This document shows, in pieces, positions 3,854-10,136 of a stretch of 64,000 nt of DNA. The position numbers were made by a program, and so were the translations under genes. Position 1 is the first letter of the stretch. The number at the start of each line of letters is the position of its first letter. The stretch is from Thermoproteota archaeon (GTDB taxonomy: Archaea > Korarchaeota > Korarchaeia > Korarchaeales > Korarchaeaceae). The notes below the pieces were generated by a model. That model was not told the origin of the DNA, did not search any database, and worked only from the letters and a program-made list of their open reading frames with translations. The stretch lies in contig JALSOH010000004.1 in the NCBI GenBank assembly GCA_026986575.1, forward strand, positions 62,001-126,000, given 5' to 3'.

Positions 3854-3897
3854 TACCACATCCCGTAGAAAACAAAGGAGTGAAGAGAGGGCCCAGT

Positions 3898-4713
3898 ATG
3901 GTGAGAGTGGGGATAATAGGGGGCAGTGGTATTTACAGGTTGTTGGAGAATCCAGTAAGGAGGGTACTGAGCACTCCCTTCGGTGAAGCAACAGTCTTCC
4001 TAGGGGAGTTCGGAGGGGAGGAGATAGCTTTCATACCCCGACACGGTGAGAAGCACGAGATCCCTCCCTTCAAAGTCAATTACAGAGCTAATCTCTACGC
4101 TCTGAACCTGTTAGGAGTTGAGAGGATCATGGCTACAAATGCTGTCGGGGCGATCAACCCGGAACTGGCTCCTGGGACCTTTGTCATTCCTGATGACTTC
4201 ATAGATTTAACTAAATGTAGGGAAGTAACGTTCTATGATGGAAAAACAATTCTCAAAGTAAGGGGCAGAGAAGTGGGGGGTGTGGTCCACGTATCCATGA
4301 CCCCCTATACCTACTGCCCGGAGATAAGGGGTGCATTAAAGGAGGCAGCTCAGGAGCTGGATTTGGAGATCGTAGACAGAGGTGTTTACGTATGCGCAGA
4401 GGGAAACCGGTTTGAGACACCAGCTGAGATAAGGGCTATGAGGATATTGGGCGGTGACATAGTCGGAATGACTGGATGCCCCGAAGCCGCGCTCGCTAGG
4501 GAGTTGGCCATGTGTTACGCTAGCATCTCCGTGGTGACTAACTATGCTGCTGGTGTCGGCGGCAGAGTCAAACTCACGCATGAAGAGGTCCTAGAGACAT
4601 TCTCCAAGAGGATAAAAGATCTTTCAGAGATCCTCAAGAGGGCAGTAGGGAAGATACCGGTCAAGAGGTCCTGTCCGTGCGGTGAAGCATTGGACGAGTT
4701 CCTCGGTAAATGA
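3898..4713 (+). CDS. MTAP/PNP-family purine nucleoside phosphorylase
   Basis: Phosphorolysis of a purine (methylthio)nucleoside for purine or methionine salvage, in the cytosol. It starts MVRVGIIGGSGIYRL, a typical family opening. Further motifs are RHGEKHEIPPFKVNYRAN (phosphate and ribose site), GAINPELAPGTFVIPDDFID, NRFETPAEIR and MTGCPEAALARE. The base-site segment reads VVTNYAAG, with Asn where adenosine-type MTAPs usually have Asp. In this family that substitution is associated with 6-oxopurine preference, so methylthioinosine, inosine or guanosine is possible. The C-terminus has a CPC (CxC) motif, as in hyperthermophilic homologs where CxC helps disulfide exchange. An upstream in-frame GTG at 3880 is an alternative start. 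Confidence 0.85.
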   Translation: MVRVGIIGGSGIYRLLENPVRRVLSTPFGEATVFLGEFGGEEIAFIPRHGEKHEIPPFKVNYRANLYALNLLGVERIMATNAVGAINPELAPGTFVIPDDFIDLTKCREVTFYDGKTILKVRGREVGGVVHVSMTPYTYCPEIRGALKEAAQELDLEIVDRGVYVCAEGNRFETPAEIRAMRILGGDIVGMTGCPEAALARELAMCYASISVVTNYAAGVGGRVKLTHEEVLETFSKRIKDLSEILKRAVGKIPVKRSCPCGEALDEFLGK

Positions 4714-4812: not shown

Positions 4813-6030
4813 GTGGCACTCTTGAGGACGAGAAAGGTCTTGACGCTGGACGATCTCTCTCTGGATGGCAAGAAGGTCTTTCTAAGGGCCGATATGAATG
4901 TCCCCATCGGGGAGAATGGGGAGATCATGAACAACGAGAAGATCAAGCAGGCCGCGAAGACCCTCAAGGAGCTCATAGAGAGGGGATCCTCCGTGGTTAT
5001 CGGTACCCATCAGGGGAGACCCGGAAGTAGCGACTTCATAAGCACAGAACCTCACGCACAGGAGCTCAGCAAGGAGGTAGGTCTAGAGGTTAGATATGTA
5101 GATGGCGTCATATCCAAGGAGATAAGGGAGCAGATAAAGAAGCTAGAGCAAGGTGAGGTCCTCCTACTAGAGAACCTGAGGTTCATGGCGGAGGAGAACA
5201 TAGAGGGGGATCCTCGGGATCTCATCAAGACGCACTTCGTCCAGAGACTCGCGCCTCTCTTCAATATATACATCAATGACGCCTTCCAAGCGGCACACAG
5301 GAGTCAGCCATCTCTGGTCGCGTTCCCTTACTTGATGCCAGCCGCGGCCGGAAGGAACATGCAGAAGATGATAGCTGAGATGGCGGAGATCGATGCGATT
5401 AGGGGAAGGAGGATCTTCATACTGGGGGGCGCCAAGGTCAGCGATAAGCTGAAGGTCATGGTCCACGCCATAAGGAACGGGAAGGCAGCGGAGGTCCTGA
5501 CCGGCGGGCTCCTCGGTATCATTATCGCTCATGCGGCGGGCCACAAGCTCAATGGAGATCTTAAGAAGATAAGGGACTTGGACCTCCTCCTGCCCGCTGC
5601 TAGGGAGATACTTAGGCTGGGGGAGGGGAGGGTCTTCTACCCTGTGGACTTCGTCGTGAAGATGAGGGACGGCAGCTTGGAAAATGTGCCGGTTTACGCT
5701 GTGCCGGAGGACGGCAAGATAATAGATATAGGCTCGGGTACGATAGAGATATACAAGGAGAGATTGAAGGGAGCTGATTTGGCTGTGGCTAACGGGCCTA
5801 TGGGCATCTTTGAGAGGCCAGAGTCCCGGAGGGGTACTCTGGAGATAGTCAAGGCCATGGAGAAGTACGCCAAGGAGTCCGTACTCTGCGGCGGGCACCT
5901 CAGTACCGCAGCTAACATGGCTGGAATAAAGGGTAGCAGGGTTTACACGGCTGGTGGGGCCGTGCTCTACGGGCTAGCAGGCCTCCCCCTGCCAGCAGTA
6001 GATGCTCTCAGGGAGAGTAGTAGGAGATGA
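4813..6030 (+). CDS. pgk: Phosphoglycerate kinase
   Basis: Glycolytic and gluconeogenic enzyme interconverting 1,3-bisphosphoglycerate + ADP and 3-phosphoglycerate + ATP. The GTG at 4813 gives 405 residues, normal for archaeal PGK. The open frame runs back to 4714, but that stretch is AT-rich promoter sequence coding for nothing PGK-like. Seen are the substrate motifs VFLRADMNVPIG and GTHQGRPGS, the AFQAAHRSQPS segment, GGAKVSDKLKVM, the nucleotide segment NGPMGIFE, and GGHLSTAANM near the end. GGGGA precedes the start. The stop overlaps the next start by 4 nt (ATGA), which implies translational coupling to the GAPDH-like gene. Confidence 0.95.
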   Translation: MALLRTRKVLTLDDLSLDGKKVFLRADMNVPIGENGEIMNNEKIKQAAKTLKELIERGSSVVIGTHQGRPGSSDFISTEPHAQELSKEVGLEVRYVDGVISKEIREQIKKLEQGEVLLLENLRFMAEENIEGDPRDLIKTHFVQRLAPLFNIYINDAFQAAHRSQPSLVAFPYLMPAAAGRNMQKMIAEMAEIDAIRGRRIFILGGAKVSDKLKVMVHAIRNGKAAEVLTGGLLGIIIAHAAGHKLNGDLKKIRDLDLLLPAAREILRLGEGRVFYPVDFVVKMRDGSLENVPVYAVPEDGKIIDIGSGTIEIYKERLKGADLAVANGPMGIFERPESRRGTLEIVKAMEKYAKESVLCGGHLSTAANMAGIKGSRVYTAGGAVLYGLAGLPLPAVDALRESSRR

Positions 6031-6782
6031 TGAGAGTAGGGATAGTGGGCCATGATCCCTACACTATTCCCATTGCTGATTGTCTGGAGAGGCAGCCGGA
6101 CATTAAGGTAATTGGCGCCTATAACCACGATATAACTCCTTTCTCTCGACCGATTTCTAAAAGGCTGAATATTTACTGCAGTGAATCCAGCTTGGAGCTC
6201 TTCAAGGAGATGGGGATAAAGGTATCCGGTTTCTTGGACGACTTCATAGAGGGGACCGATGCCTTCTTGGAGTATAGTGTAAAGGAGTACTCCGTGAGAA
6301 TCTCCTACGGCAGCTCAGGTATGATTGTAAAGCCCTACGAAGTACTGCTGGAGAGGTTATCTTTAGGTCTTCCCCTTCAGGACATCTCCATGGAGGAGAT
6401 ACGTGACGAACTTTTTTGCTGCCCGTACTTCAGGGCGTTTCGTTTAACTGTGAAGTTGAGAGACGATCTAAGCTTGGGAGAGGTTAGAGAATCTCTCCTC
6501 AGGTCTTCCAGAGTGGTGGGCATCTCCGGCCGAGATCTATACCTGCAGGATCTGTGCGCCTTCCTCCCGGTATCCTTCCCTCACTCCATCTTCTCCGTGA
6601 ATGCCCTCCTCAGCTCAGTGAAGGTGGCGGGGGAGGAGGTTGAGATGATCTCCCTGCTGGGATACCTGCTCCCCTTACCGGAGGTTGTGGATACCCTGAG
6701 GGAGTCGGAAGGTGTTAAGAGGGAGTTCTCCCGGTCGATGACCGATGAATACCTAAGTATTAAAGGCGGGCTGATCATCTAG
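6027..6782 (+). CDS. Shortened GAPDH-like protein lacking the catalytic segment (likely pseudoenzyme)
   Basis: 251 residues. The first about 85 follow the NAD-binding half of archaeal type II GAPDH: MRVGIVG, KVIGAYNHD, then KRLNIYCSESSLELFKEMGI and VSGFLDDFIEGTDAFLEYS. The last about 110 follow the GAPDH C-terminal part: FRAFRLTVKLRDDLSLGEVR, SSRVVGISG, and VNALLSSVKVAGEEVEMISL followed by LPEVVDTLRES. The middle, about 90 residues in true GAPDH with the catalytic Cys motif (SCNTT), is missing, and the dinucleotide glycine motif is broken (GHDPYTI). Family membership is my reading of the alignment. Lack of activity follows from the missing residues. It overlaps the pgk stop by 4 nt, so a regulatory or PGK-binding role is conceivable. 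Confidence 0.65.
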   Translation: MMRVGIVGHDPYTIPIADCLERQPDIKVIGAYNHDITPFSRPISKRLNIYCSESSLELFKEMGIKVSGFLDDFIEGTDAFLEYSVKEYSVRISYGSSGMIVKPYEVLLERLSLGLPLQDISMEEIRDELFCCPYFRAFRLTVKLRDDLSLGEVRESLLRSSRVVGISGRDLYLQDLCAFLPVSFPHSIFSVNALLSSVKVAGEEVEMISLLGYLLPLPEVVDTLRESEGVKREFSRSMTDEYLSIKGGLII

Positions 6783-6804: not shown

Positions 6805-8796
6805 TTGGAGGAAATGCAGGAACGTAGTCCAACTGGAGGTGCGTTCACCTTCAGGTCTATAACTCTCTCCTTGGCCTTCGGCTTGTTCATGCTCTTCGCT
6901 CAGACGGTCATGAGGAGCGCGGCCGGTTACAGCTGGACCGGCGAGGCCGCTCTGGTGGTACTCACCGTGGCCTACGCCCTCTCCACTGTGAAGGGCAATC
7001 CCTTGTCTATCGGGGAAATGGGCGTCATATTCGGGTCCATAGAGGTCATCACCGTGCTGTTCGTTGGTTGGCAGTACATTCTGCCCTCTTGGGCCAGAGC
7101 TGGACTCGCTAAAGATTTCCCTTTGAGAGGAATACTGCCTGAGTTCTTAGTTCCCAAGGATCAGGAGGCCCTAAGAGCTCTACTGTTAGGTGGGAGGGTC
7201 AACTGGTCTGCTTGGATACTCCCCCTGACCTACGCCGTTCTCTTCGCTGTAATCCTGTCCCTATTCTCCTACCTTAACATCATACCCTTCAGGAGATTTT
7301 ACTTGGAGAAGGAGAAGCTGATCTTTCCAGTGGCCACGGTCAGCGCCAAGTTCTCTCAACTGGTTAAGGAGAGAAGAGGGGGTCTCAGGTGGCTGTGGCT
7401 CGGCGTATTGGCTGGATTCAGCATCAGCCTCTTCCAGAAGGGACACCTGCTCCAAGCAATATGGGAGGACTTCCCGGCTGCCGAGCTAAGGATCGATCTA
7501 ACACCTTGGCTCCAGCAGTTCTTCCCAGGAGGAGCCTTTGGCATGGATCCTGGGACTCAGATAACCCCAGATCTGCTGGCATGGGCGTTTCTCATACCCC
7601 TAGAGATTCAGGTGTCCATGTGGGCAACGGCCATCGTGGCCTTCCTCTTGGTTCCTCCCATCCTAGTGAGAATGGGTCTCCTGCCGTACGAACCAGGTCA
7701 CGATTTCGCTTTTTACTCCTCAAATGCTGCAGTGAACGGCCCTCTTCCGTGGTACCACATATCAACGGGTCTCTACCTAGCTGTGGGACTCATCCCCCTT
7801 ATACTCGGGTATAGGTACATCAGGGACAGTTGGAGGGCTTGGGAGGACGAGCCTCTAACGAGGAAGTGGCTCGTGATCGGATGGCTGCTCACCTTCGGCG
7901 CCAGTACTCTCATGATAATGGTTCTGGGGGTAAGCCCGCTCATAGCCTTGGTGCTCGTTATCCTACACCTCATGTACTGGCACGGCTACGTTTGGACGAT
8001 AGGAATGGGCAACTGGATAATCCCCGTGGATTTGGGTATCAGGGGTATCGTGGACAACGCGTTCTTCGCTTCAGGCATGTTCCAGCGCGCCTCCTCGGAT
8101 GCGTTCTTCTCAGGTGCGGCCTCAGCTATGATGACCGACGCGGCGTCGGCTCAACCCACTGCCTCGGCGGAGAGCTTCAAATACGCTAAGTCCATAGGGA
8201 TGAGGGCTAGGGAGATGTTCAAAGCCCAGCTCATGGGACTACTATTTGGGGCGGTGGTGGGAGGCGTCTTGCTGCTGGTGTCGTTCCACGCATGGGGAGC
8301 GGCGAAGAAGCCCCTAGACATGGCCTCTCCCATCTATCCGAATGTGGGTCTCCTCTCAGTGATGGGCGATTTAGCTGGATGGAAGCTGGAGTACTTCTTG
8401 GAGGGTCTTGCAATAGGGGCTATCGTCTTCCTGCTGAAGGGAGGCATACCTTGGCTCGGTATAAGCGCCGTTGGAGTGCTGTTCGGTCTCTTGATACCCC
8501 AGTACGCCATCCTCTACATGATATCCAGCCTGTTCAGATATCTGACGAGGAGATATGGAGGCCAAGAGTTCTTCTGGGAGACTGCAGTCCCCTTCGTGGC
8601 GGGATTCGCCATAGGAGGAGTCCTCAACGTCATGGGGACGAGCTTAGTGGTGATTATGAGGTCGAGCCCGCTCGAGCCCCTGGCCAGCATAGTCGGCGTG
8701 ATCATCCTGCTGACTGTGATCCTACCCTCCATTAGGGCCTACATGTCCTTCTCGCGTAAGGGGATTGAGGAGGAAATCGGGGAGGTGAGTGATTGA
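6805..8796 (+). CDS. OPT/YSL-family-like transporter
   Basis: Polytopic membrane protein of 663 residues with about 14-16 hydrophobic segments. Its layout parallels oligopeptide/metal-chelate (OPT) transporters. PFRRFYLEKEKLIFPVATVS matches the family's conserved segment after the early helices. An AMMTDAASAQPTASAE...AREMFKAQLMG stretch corresponds to the later 'QD.K.G...GA....Q' region, and the C-terminal third ends with repeated Gly-rich helices. Substrates in the family are oligopeptides or metal chelates; this one's substrate is unknown. The start is the TTG at 6805 after GGGGATC; an ATG at 6814 with GGAGG is equally good. It overlaps the next gene's start by 4 nt. Confidence 0.6.
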   Translation: MEEMQERSPTGGAFTFRSITLSLAFGLFMLFAQTVMRSAAGYSWTGEAALVVLTVAYALSTVKGNPLSIGEMGVIFGSIEVITVLFVGWQYILPSWARAGLAKDFPLRGILPEFLVPKDQEALRALLLGGRVNWSAWILPLTYAVLFAVILSLFSYLNIIPFRRFYLEKEKLIFPVATVSAKFSQLVKERRGGLRWLWLGVLAGFSISLFQKGHLLQAIWEDFPAAELRIDLTPWLQQFFPGGAFGMDPGTQITPDLLAWAFLIPLEIQVSMWATAIVAFLLVPPILVRMGLLPYEPGHDFAFYSSNAAVNGPLPWYHISTGLYLAVGLIPLILGYRYIRDSWRAWEDEPLTRKWLVIGWLLTFGASTLMIMVLGVSPLIALVLVILHLMYWHGYVWTIGMGNWIIPVDLGIRGIVDNAFFASGMFQRASSDAFFSGAASAMMTDAASAQPTASAESFKYAKSIGMRAREMFKAQLMGLLFGAVVGGVLLLVSFHAWGAAKKPLDMASPIYPNVGLLSVMGDLAGWKLEYFLEGLAIGAIVFLLKGGIPWLGISAVGVLFGLLIPQYAILYMISSLFRYLTRRYGGQEFFWETAVPFVAGFAIGGVLNVMGTSLVVIMRSSPLEPLASIVGVIILLTVILPSIRAYMSFSRKGIEEEIGEVSD

Positions 8797-10136
8797 CCCT
8801 CATATTCACACCCCTCGGCATAAGGGGGATTTTTGGAGATGGCATTGACTCGGCTGTAGTTGAGAGGATAGCTAACATCTTCGGTAGAGAGCTAGGAGAG
8901 GGAAGTTTGGTGGTCGTCGGGCGGGATACCAGGCCTAGCGGATACGTACTGGACAAGGCGGTCGTCTCGGGCCTGCTTTCGGCGGGGGTCAATGTGCTCA
9001 ACATAGGCATAGCCCCTACCCCAACGATAGAGTGGGCCGTCGAGAGGTATGATGCGGATGGTGGAATCATCATATCGGCCAGTCATAACCCCCCTGAATG
9101 GAACGCCTTGAAGCTGATAGGGAAGAAGGGGCTGCTCCTCCATCCGGACGAAATGGAGAGGCTCAAGGATAGGTTCGAGAAGGAGGAATTCAGGTCGGTT
9201 CCTTGGAGCGATATAGGTATGGAGGAGGTCGTCGACGTAACTGGGGACTACTTGGAGGACCTGCTGAACTTTGTGAACATCGATGCGATCTCGGAAGCGG
9301 GTTTTAAGGTAGTACTGGACGTTAACGGAGGCGCCGGTGCTTACGTCACGCCCTACCTCCTCCAATCGCTGGGATGTAAGGTCAACACGCTGAACTCCTC
9401 GCCCGGAATATTCGTCAGGGAGATGGAACCTAGGCCCGATACTCTCCAAGACCTGTCCAAGGTCGTCGTATCTACAGGAGCGGATGTGGGTTTCGCCCAT
9501 GATACCGACGCCGACAGGCTTACCCTCGTAACCGAAGAGGGAGAGGTGCTCTCCGAGGACATCACCCTCGCGCTGGTCGTCGATTATATCCTGGAGAAGA
9601 GAGGCAGAGGTTCCCTCGTGGTGAACGTAGCTTCCTCCAAGATGTTCGATGATATTGCGAGGAAGAGGGGGGCTAAGATATACAGGACCCCTGTAGGCGA
9701 GGCCTACGTGGCTCACAAGATGAGGGAGATCGGTGCCACGGTGGGCGGCGAGGGGAGCTGCGGAGGGGTCATACTGCCCGACTTCCACATGGGAAGGGAT
9801 GGTCCTCTCGCCGCGGCGCTCATACTTGAGATAATGGCCTCCAAGGGGAGGAGCATAAGCGAACTTGTCTCTGAGCTCCCTAAGTATCACACGATAAGGG
9901 CTAACTTCCCGAGAAGGAGGGATTGGGATTCGCTGAAGAGGGACCTCATATCCCTCGGTGAGAGGAGGGGCATGGAGATCGATCTGACTGACGGGGTCCG
10001 ACTCTCCGACTTGGAAGTCTGGGGGCTGATCCGTCCCTCCAAGACCGAACCTAAGATAAGGGTCCTTGTGGAATCGGACGATCGCTCCAAAGCTGAGGAG
10101 TTCTTGAGAGAAGTGAAGAGGGTCGTAGCTGTGTGA
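8793..10136 (+). CDS. glmM: Phosphoglucosamine/phosphomanno-mutase family enzyme (GlmM-like)
   Basis: Alpha-D-phosphohexomutase, 447 residues. The four expected sites are present: the phosphoserine loop IIISASHNPPEWNALKL (catalytic Ser about residue 99), the metal loop DTDADRLTL (family DxDxDR), the sugar loop GEGSCGGVILPDFHMGRDGP, and the phosphate-binding loop RPSKTEPKIRV near the C-terminus. The sugar loop has GEGSCGG where GEGNGG is common. Archaeal members convert glucosamine-6-P to glucosamine-1-P for UDP-GlcNAc synthesis, or act on mannose or glucose phosphates; sequence alone does not settle which. The start is a TTG overlapping the transporter stop. A GlmU-like protein is encoded at 33.6-34.8 kb and could act in the same pathway. 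Confidence 0.88.
   Translation: MTLIFTPLGIRGIFGDGIDSAVVERIANIFGRELGEGSLVVVGRDTRPSGYVLDKAVVSGLLSAGVNVLNIGIAPTPTIEWAVERYDADGGIIISASHNPPEWNALKLIGKKGLLLHPDEMERLKDRFEKEEFRSVPWSDIGMEEVVDVTGDYLEDLLNFVNIDAISEAGFKVVLDVNGGAGAYVTPYLLQSLGCKVNTLNSSPGIFVREMEPRPDTLQDLSKVVVSTGADVGFAHDTDADRLTLVTEEGEVLSEDITLALVVDYILEKRGRGSLVVNVASSKMFDDIARKRGAKIYRTPVGEAYVAHKMREIGATVGGEGSCGGVILPDFHMGRDGPLAAALILEIMASKGRSISELVSELPKYHTIRANFPRRRDWDSLKRDLISLGERRGMEIDLTDGVRLSDLEVWGLIRPSKTEPKIRVLVESDDRSKAEEFLREVKRVVAV

Follow-up and report, generated by a model that had tools for sequence, protein, structure and literature searches.

What is a GAPDH-like gene without its catalytic core doing directly behind pgk, and does it still do anything? 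The gene in question, gapX, lies in a 64,000-nt stretch of korarchaeal DNA (the window). The original prediction described its product as a protein with the fold of GAPDH, translationally coupled to PGK. The features discussed here are collected in Table 1.

Table 1. Features of the gapX locus, in window coordinates.
Feature	Position	Strand	Basis or comment
MTAP-like nucleoside phosphorylase, upstream neighbour	3880..4713	+	Named by sequence and context; conserved in sister genera
pgk, phosphoglycerate kinase, 405 aa from GTG at 4813	4813..6030	+	Pfam PF00162, E 3.7e-97
gapX, 251 aa, descended from archaeal type II GAPDH and probably non-catalytic	6027..6782	+	Homology, profiles, model
ATGA, overlap of gapX start and pgk stop, 4 nt	6027..6030	+	Shared by 15 of the 16 genus genomes
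N block (gapX residues 1-87), homologue of GAPDH 1-88 and start of the Rossmann domain	6027..6287	+	Profile and blockwise comparison
GHDPYT at residues 8-13, in place of the GxGxxG cofactor loop	6048..6065	+	Alignment
Replacement middle, residues 88-134, in place of GAPDH 89-217 with the catalytic Cys	6288..6428	+	Profile, model
C-P-x-F-(R/K), residues 132-136	6420..6434	+	Sequence alignment
C block (gapX residues 135-251), homologue of GAPDH 218-339	6429..6779	+	Profile and blockwise comparison
OPT/DUF6785 transporter, downstream of gapX in the genus	6805..8796	+	Neighbour comparison
Phosphomutase-like gene, next in block after the transporter	8793..10136	+	Named by sequence

gapX shares ancestry and overall fold with archaeal type II phosphorylating GAPDH (TIGR01546/NF003251; PDB 1b7g, 1cf2, 2czc, 2yyy). 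We conclude this from profile-profile alignment, a profile search of the PDB, structural comparison and gene order. With the single sequence, the N-terminus of gapX matched NF003251 (E 2.3e-7) and TIGR01546 (E 4.2e-5), both far under their cut-offs: the curated cut-off for archaeal type II GAPDH is 232.9 bits, and gapX scored 22.9 bits over residues 4-80 only. Scores across the genus were about 19-27 bits. The match of the single sequence to PDB 1b7g (E 7e-6) was also mainly N-terminal. A profile of 15 gapX sequences matched 1b7g with E 6.7e-16 and recovered two blocks, residues 1-87 against 1-88 and residues 135-252 against 218-339. Alignment with hhalign to 19 intact archaeal GAPDHs gave E 1.5e-15, and the two blocks taken separately gave 4e-20 and 6e-10. 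The C block ends in the pattern PE..D..RE....S...TD..L.I..GL. gapX matched no Pfam or PHROGs family. The proposal that both ends of the protein track archaeal type II GAPDH was therefore borne out.

The catalytic centre of GAPDH is absent from gapX. In place of about 130 residues of GAPDH (approximately 89-217), gapX has about 47 unrelated residues. The missing block bears the SCNTT, RRxxDP and SHHGPD motifs, and within it lies S139-C140-N141-T142-T143 (sister GAPDH numbering), invariant in the 19 intact enzymes. The glycines of GxGxxG (G9, G11 and G14 in the same numbering) are likewise invariant in those 19 enzymes, whereas gapX has G-H-D-P-Y-T and keeps the first glycine only; G8 and P11 of this altered loop are invariant across the 15 full-length gapX proteins. 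At the HxH positions of GAPDH, gapX has R/K136 and a non-His residue. Position 136, which aligns with an invariant His of GAPDH, is always R or K, and C132, P133 and F135 before it are invariant in all 15 sequences. Loss of the middle segment with its catalytic cysteine and disruption of the glycine-rich NAD loop, both claimed from the single sequence, thus hold against the intact family. Because the catalytic residues are missing, gapX is predicted to be non-catalytic.

The replacement middle appears to be gapX's own. Comparison of residues 85-133 with the middle of GAPDH found no detectable sequence relation (36 of 100 column shuffles scored as well). We also considered an alignment to GAPDH 190-217, where the order of helices and strands looks alike by eye, and rejected it for want of statistical support.

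The predicted structure of gapX is GAPDH-like. Five AlphaFold2 models made with a 15-row alignment had pLDDT values from 76.0 to 93.4, and the best had a mean pLDDT of 93.4 and a pTM of 0.89. The best PDB match to the model in Foldseek was 1b7g_O, a Sulfolobus GAPDH (E 1.9e-15, TM 0.79 by query length); type II GAPDHs came first, followed by bacterial GAPDHs. The replacement middle was modelled as strand-strand-helix-strand. An unrelated fold, which would have spoken against the original prediction, was not obtained. As the models and the measures of selection described below show, what is left of the enzyme forms a compact protein that is predicted with confidence and evolves under purifying selection.

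gapX is found throughout the host genus, a group of hot-spring archaea that is very probably Korarchaeum, and, as a full-length gene, nowhere else among the 345 genomes searched. The phylum sample comprised 29 genomes, with 16 from the host genus and 8 others from the family. Full-length gapX was present in 15 of the 16, at 40-94% identity and with no internal stop, and 47 columns were invariant across these 15 sequences. All other matches to the gapX profile outside the genus were in frames of at least 336 aa, the length of intact GAPDH. In all 16 genomes the gene comes directly after pgk, and in all but one the exact 4-nt overlap is present; in the window its ATG runs over the pgk stop TGA (6028-6030), as first reported. 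A search of related genomes for the same pgk-coupled gene thus gave conservation across the genus, rather than a gene confined to one genome and decaying there. In the literature, covered in part and as titles and abstracts, we found no account of an archaeal GAPDH that is shortened or lacks catalysis, nor of the korarchaeal case; within that coverage, the earlier remark that no protein of this form has been described stands.

Three further observations concern the neighbourhood. In genome G006, pgk is split over two contigs (G006:C2:26850-27416 and G006:C30:4-762), probably an assembly break in a draft genome. The OPT/DUF6785 transporter gene lies between gapX and the phosphomutase gene in the host genus; in the three loci that we read from sister genera, we did not find it downstream of the intact GAPDH, and in sister genus g5 the phosphomutase gene directly follows GAPDH. 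Lastly, the C-terminus of PGK, LPLPAVDALRES (window positions 5983-6018), resembles gapX residues 216-227, PLPEVVDTLRES (window positions 6672-6707). This resemblance is probably a coincidence, because the gapX version descends from the PEN-D-IR motif of GAPDH and a sister PGK ends similarly.

gapX seems to be the type II GAPDH that is native to the genus, still in the ancestral slot behind pgk. In three loci from three sister genera, the position after thermosome-MTAP-pgk is held by an intact type II GAPDH, and gapX has the same position in the host genus. Searches with tblastn found the pgk-GAPDH neighbourhood in the remaining family genomes too. Where the start could be placed, pgk and GAPDH of the sisters overlapped or were within about 7 nt of each other. 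A type II GAPDH above the cut-off was present in all eight other family genomes and in none of the 16 from the host genus.

The GAPDH reaction in these cells is presumably run by a type I enzyme. Type I GAPDH (PF00044), a distant fold relative of gapX, was found in 14 of the 16 genus genomes, the remaining two being 63% and 70% complete. None of the eight other family genomes had one above the cut-off. It is encoded by a separate gene elsewhere in the genome and is not the source of gapX. The copies that we read are open and keep both GFGRIG and SCTTN. Their best PDB matches are bacterial-type enzymes, which we take to be those of Geobacillus and Thermotoga. From this distribution, present in the genus and absent in the sisters, we infer the direction of transfer: a type I enzyme would have entered the genus, taken over catalysis and freed the native type II gene. 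The native gene, presumably after this displacement, lost the later half of its cofactor domain together with the beginning of its catalytic domain, including the active-site cysteine. We consider it highly probable that the native GAPDH has been displaced genus-wide and retained in a non-catalytic form.

Other candidates for the replacement were discarded. GAPN was rejected: the one aldehyde dehydrogenase that most members of the genus carry resembles methylmalonate-semialdehyde dehydrogenase most, and G001 and G002 are without it. GAPOR did not discriminate, since each genome tested, from the genus and from its relatives alike, had 3-12 genes of the AOR family. Loss of GAPDH altogether was ruled out when the PF00044 search found the type I enzyme. 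In G025, a class-level relative, there is a type I GAPDH, no type II match and a PGK at 33% identity (L145, L083), possibly a second replacement; no gapX-like gene was found beside its distant PGK.

gapX is vertically inherited and constrained, G001 excepted. Between near species, its dN/dS was 0.055-0.12 at dS 0.2-0.9 (Nei-Gojobori); by the same measure, pgk had 0.01-0.06 and the downstream transporter gene 0.02-0.10. Distances in gapX correlated with those in PGK (r 0.92), a correlation that reflects shared descent, and the main groups agreed between the two trees. A displaced gene might be a neutral relic carried along by its operon, and the roughly threefold faster evolution of gapX relative to PGK (about 2.9 times), together with the strongly eroded copy in G001, would fit this. 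However, the dN/dS values are not those of a decaying relic, and the frame is uninterrupted in each of the 15 species, even at 40% identity, with its invariant columns kept. We regard a neutral relic as very improbable. Neither relaxed constraint nor disrupted frames, as in a pseudogene, were seen in those 15 species, and the constraint on gapX means that it does something.

G001 is a partial exception. Its gapX slot holds a 209-aa frame (L088:2544-3173) with the same 4-nt overlap with pgk. Against the gapX family profile this frame scored 15.9 bits, whereas none of 2000 shuffles exceeded 10.0; it is therefore very probably gapX in a strongly altered form. Its AlphaFold model is confident in the N half and poor in the remainder, and the three cysteines invariant in the other gapX proteins are not kept. 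In the gapX tree G001 sits on a very long branch; its branch in the PGK tree is far less extreme. The copy retains a KxxGVKVSG motif; the genome is 99% complete and is nested within the genus by PGK. Judging by the shrinkage and drastic change of this copy, at least one lineage can do without the function of gapX or has altered it. Across the genus, gapX shows no general decay, apart from the drastically diverged version in this species.

We believe that gapX probably works by binding rather than by catalysis. As judged from its sequence, what remains should no longer bind NAD(P) or oxidize glyceraldehyde 3-phosphate. Binding is a natural guess from what is retained: the beginning of the Rossmann domain, the later strands of the catalytic domain and the C-terminal helices. 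The residues P11, S40, C51, E82-Y83, G98, P103, R110, C132-P133 and C177 are invariant in gapX and absent from GAPDH, and may mark a new surface or site. These include the three cysteines that are invariant in the 15 sequences, one of them near the invariant R/K at the position of the former invariant His, and a new enzyme with a site remodelled around residues such as C132, R136 and C177 could be imagined. Against this, the cofactor loop is broken, the whole catalytic loop region is gone and G001 lacks the three cysteines. In proteins of thermophiles, a conserved cysteine may have a structural role. A new enzyme thus seems quite improbable.

If gapX acts by binding, its partner could be PGK, with which it would be made. 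PGK is favoured because of the exact overlap of the two genes in 15 of 16 genomes; we put it forward tentatively. The coupling is weak evidence, since pgk and GAPDH also lie close together in the sisters and the other genes of the block keep their order. The overlap is a legacy of the pgk-GAPDH operon that the sisters still have, and so does not by itself point to a function with PGK. The scaffold or regulator for PGK suggested in the original prediction remains a candidate role. gapX might serve a non-catalytic purpose apart from PGK, sensing a ligand or binding another partner, and sit behind pgk because the old operon was never broken. The inherited coupling is consistent with this, as are the invariant residues absent from GAPDH, which suggest a new conserved surface or pocket. 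No profile, however, suggests a ligand or a partner, and we consider a role apart from PGK somewhat doubtful. As a partner of PGK, gapX could be a stabilizing subunit or could dock PGK to the step that involves the labile 1,3-bisphosphoglycerate; a sensor of small ligands would be less likely than a protein partner. A more specific proposal seems unlikely: that gapX became a dedicated non-catalytic partner of PGK, the next enzyme of the pathway, and, being translated in overlap with it, stabilizes or channels heat-labile 1,3-bisphosphoglycerate as this passes between PGK and the newly acquired GAPDH. For the explanation as a whole, we lean towards a native GAPDH that was displaced, stripped and retained, and that now probably acts by non-catalytic binding, with PGK as the favoured candidate partner.

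Pseudoenzymes derived from metabolic enzymes keep a conserved fold, have lost catalytic residues and remain under purifying selection. gapX has these features and, by its sequence, belongs to this broad class, with a putative non-catalytic role such as scaffold or regulator. It differs from the class in that the whole catalytic block has been replaced, and in that it arose not from a duplicate but from a single-copy orthologue whose place another enzyme took. This combination sets it apart within the class.

gapX is an apparent clear case in which a core enzyme, after non-orthologous replacement, was stripped of its catalytic core and kept under selection rather than lost. Both the stripping and the selection span the whole depth of the genus, including species at 40% identity in gapX. 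GAPDH-like matches beside pgk in genomes of this genus should not be annotated as a working enzyme. gapX itself offers a natural test for a non-catalytic role of GAPDH beside PGK.
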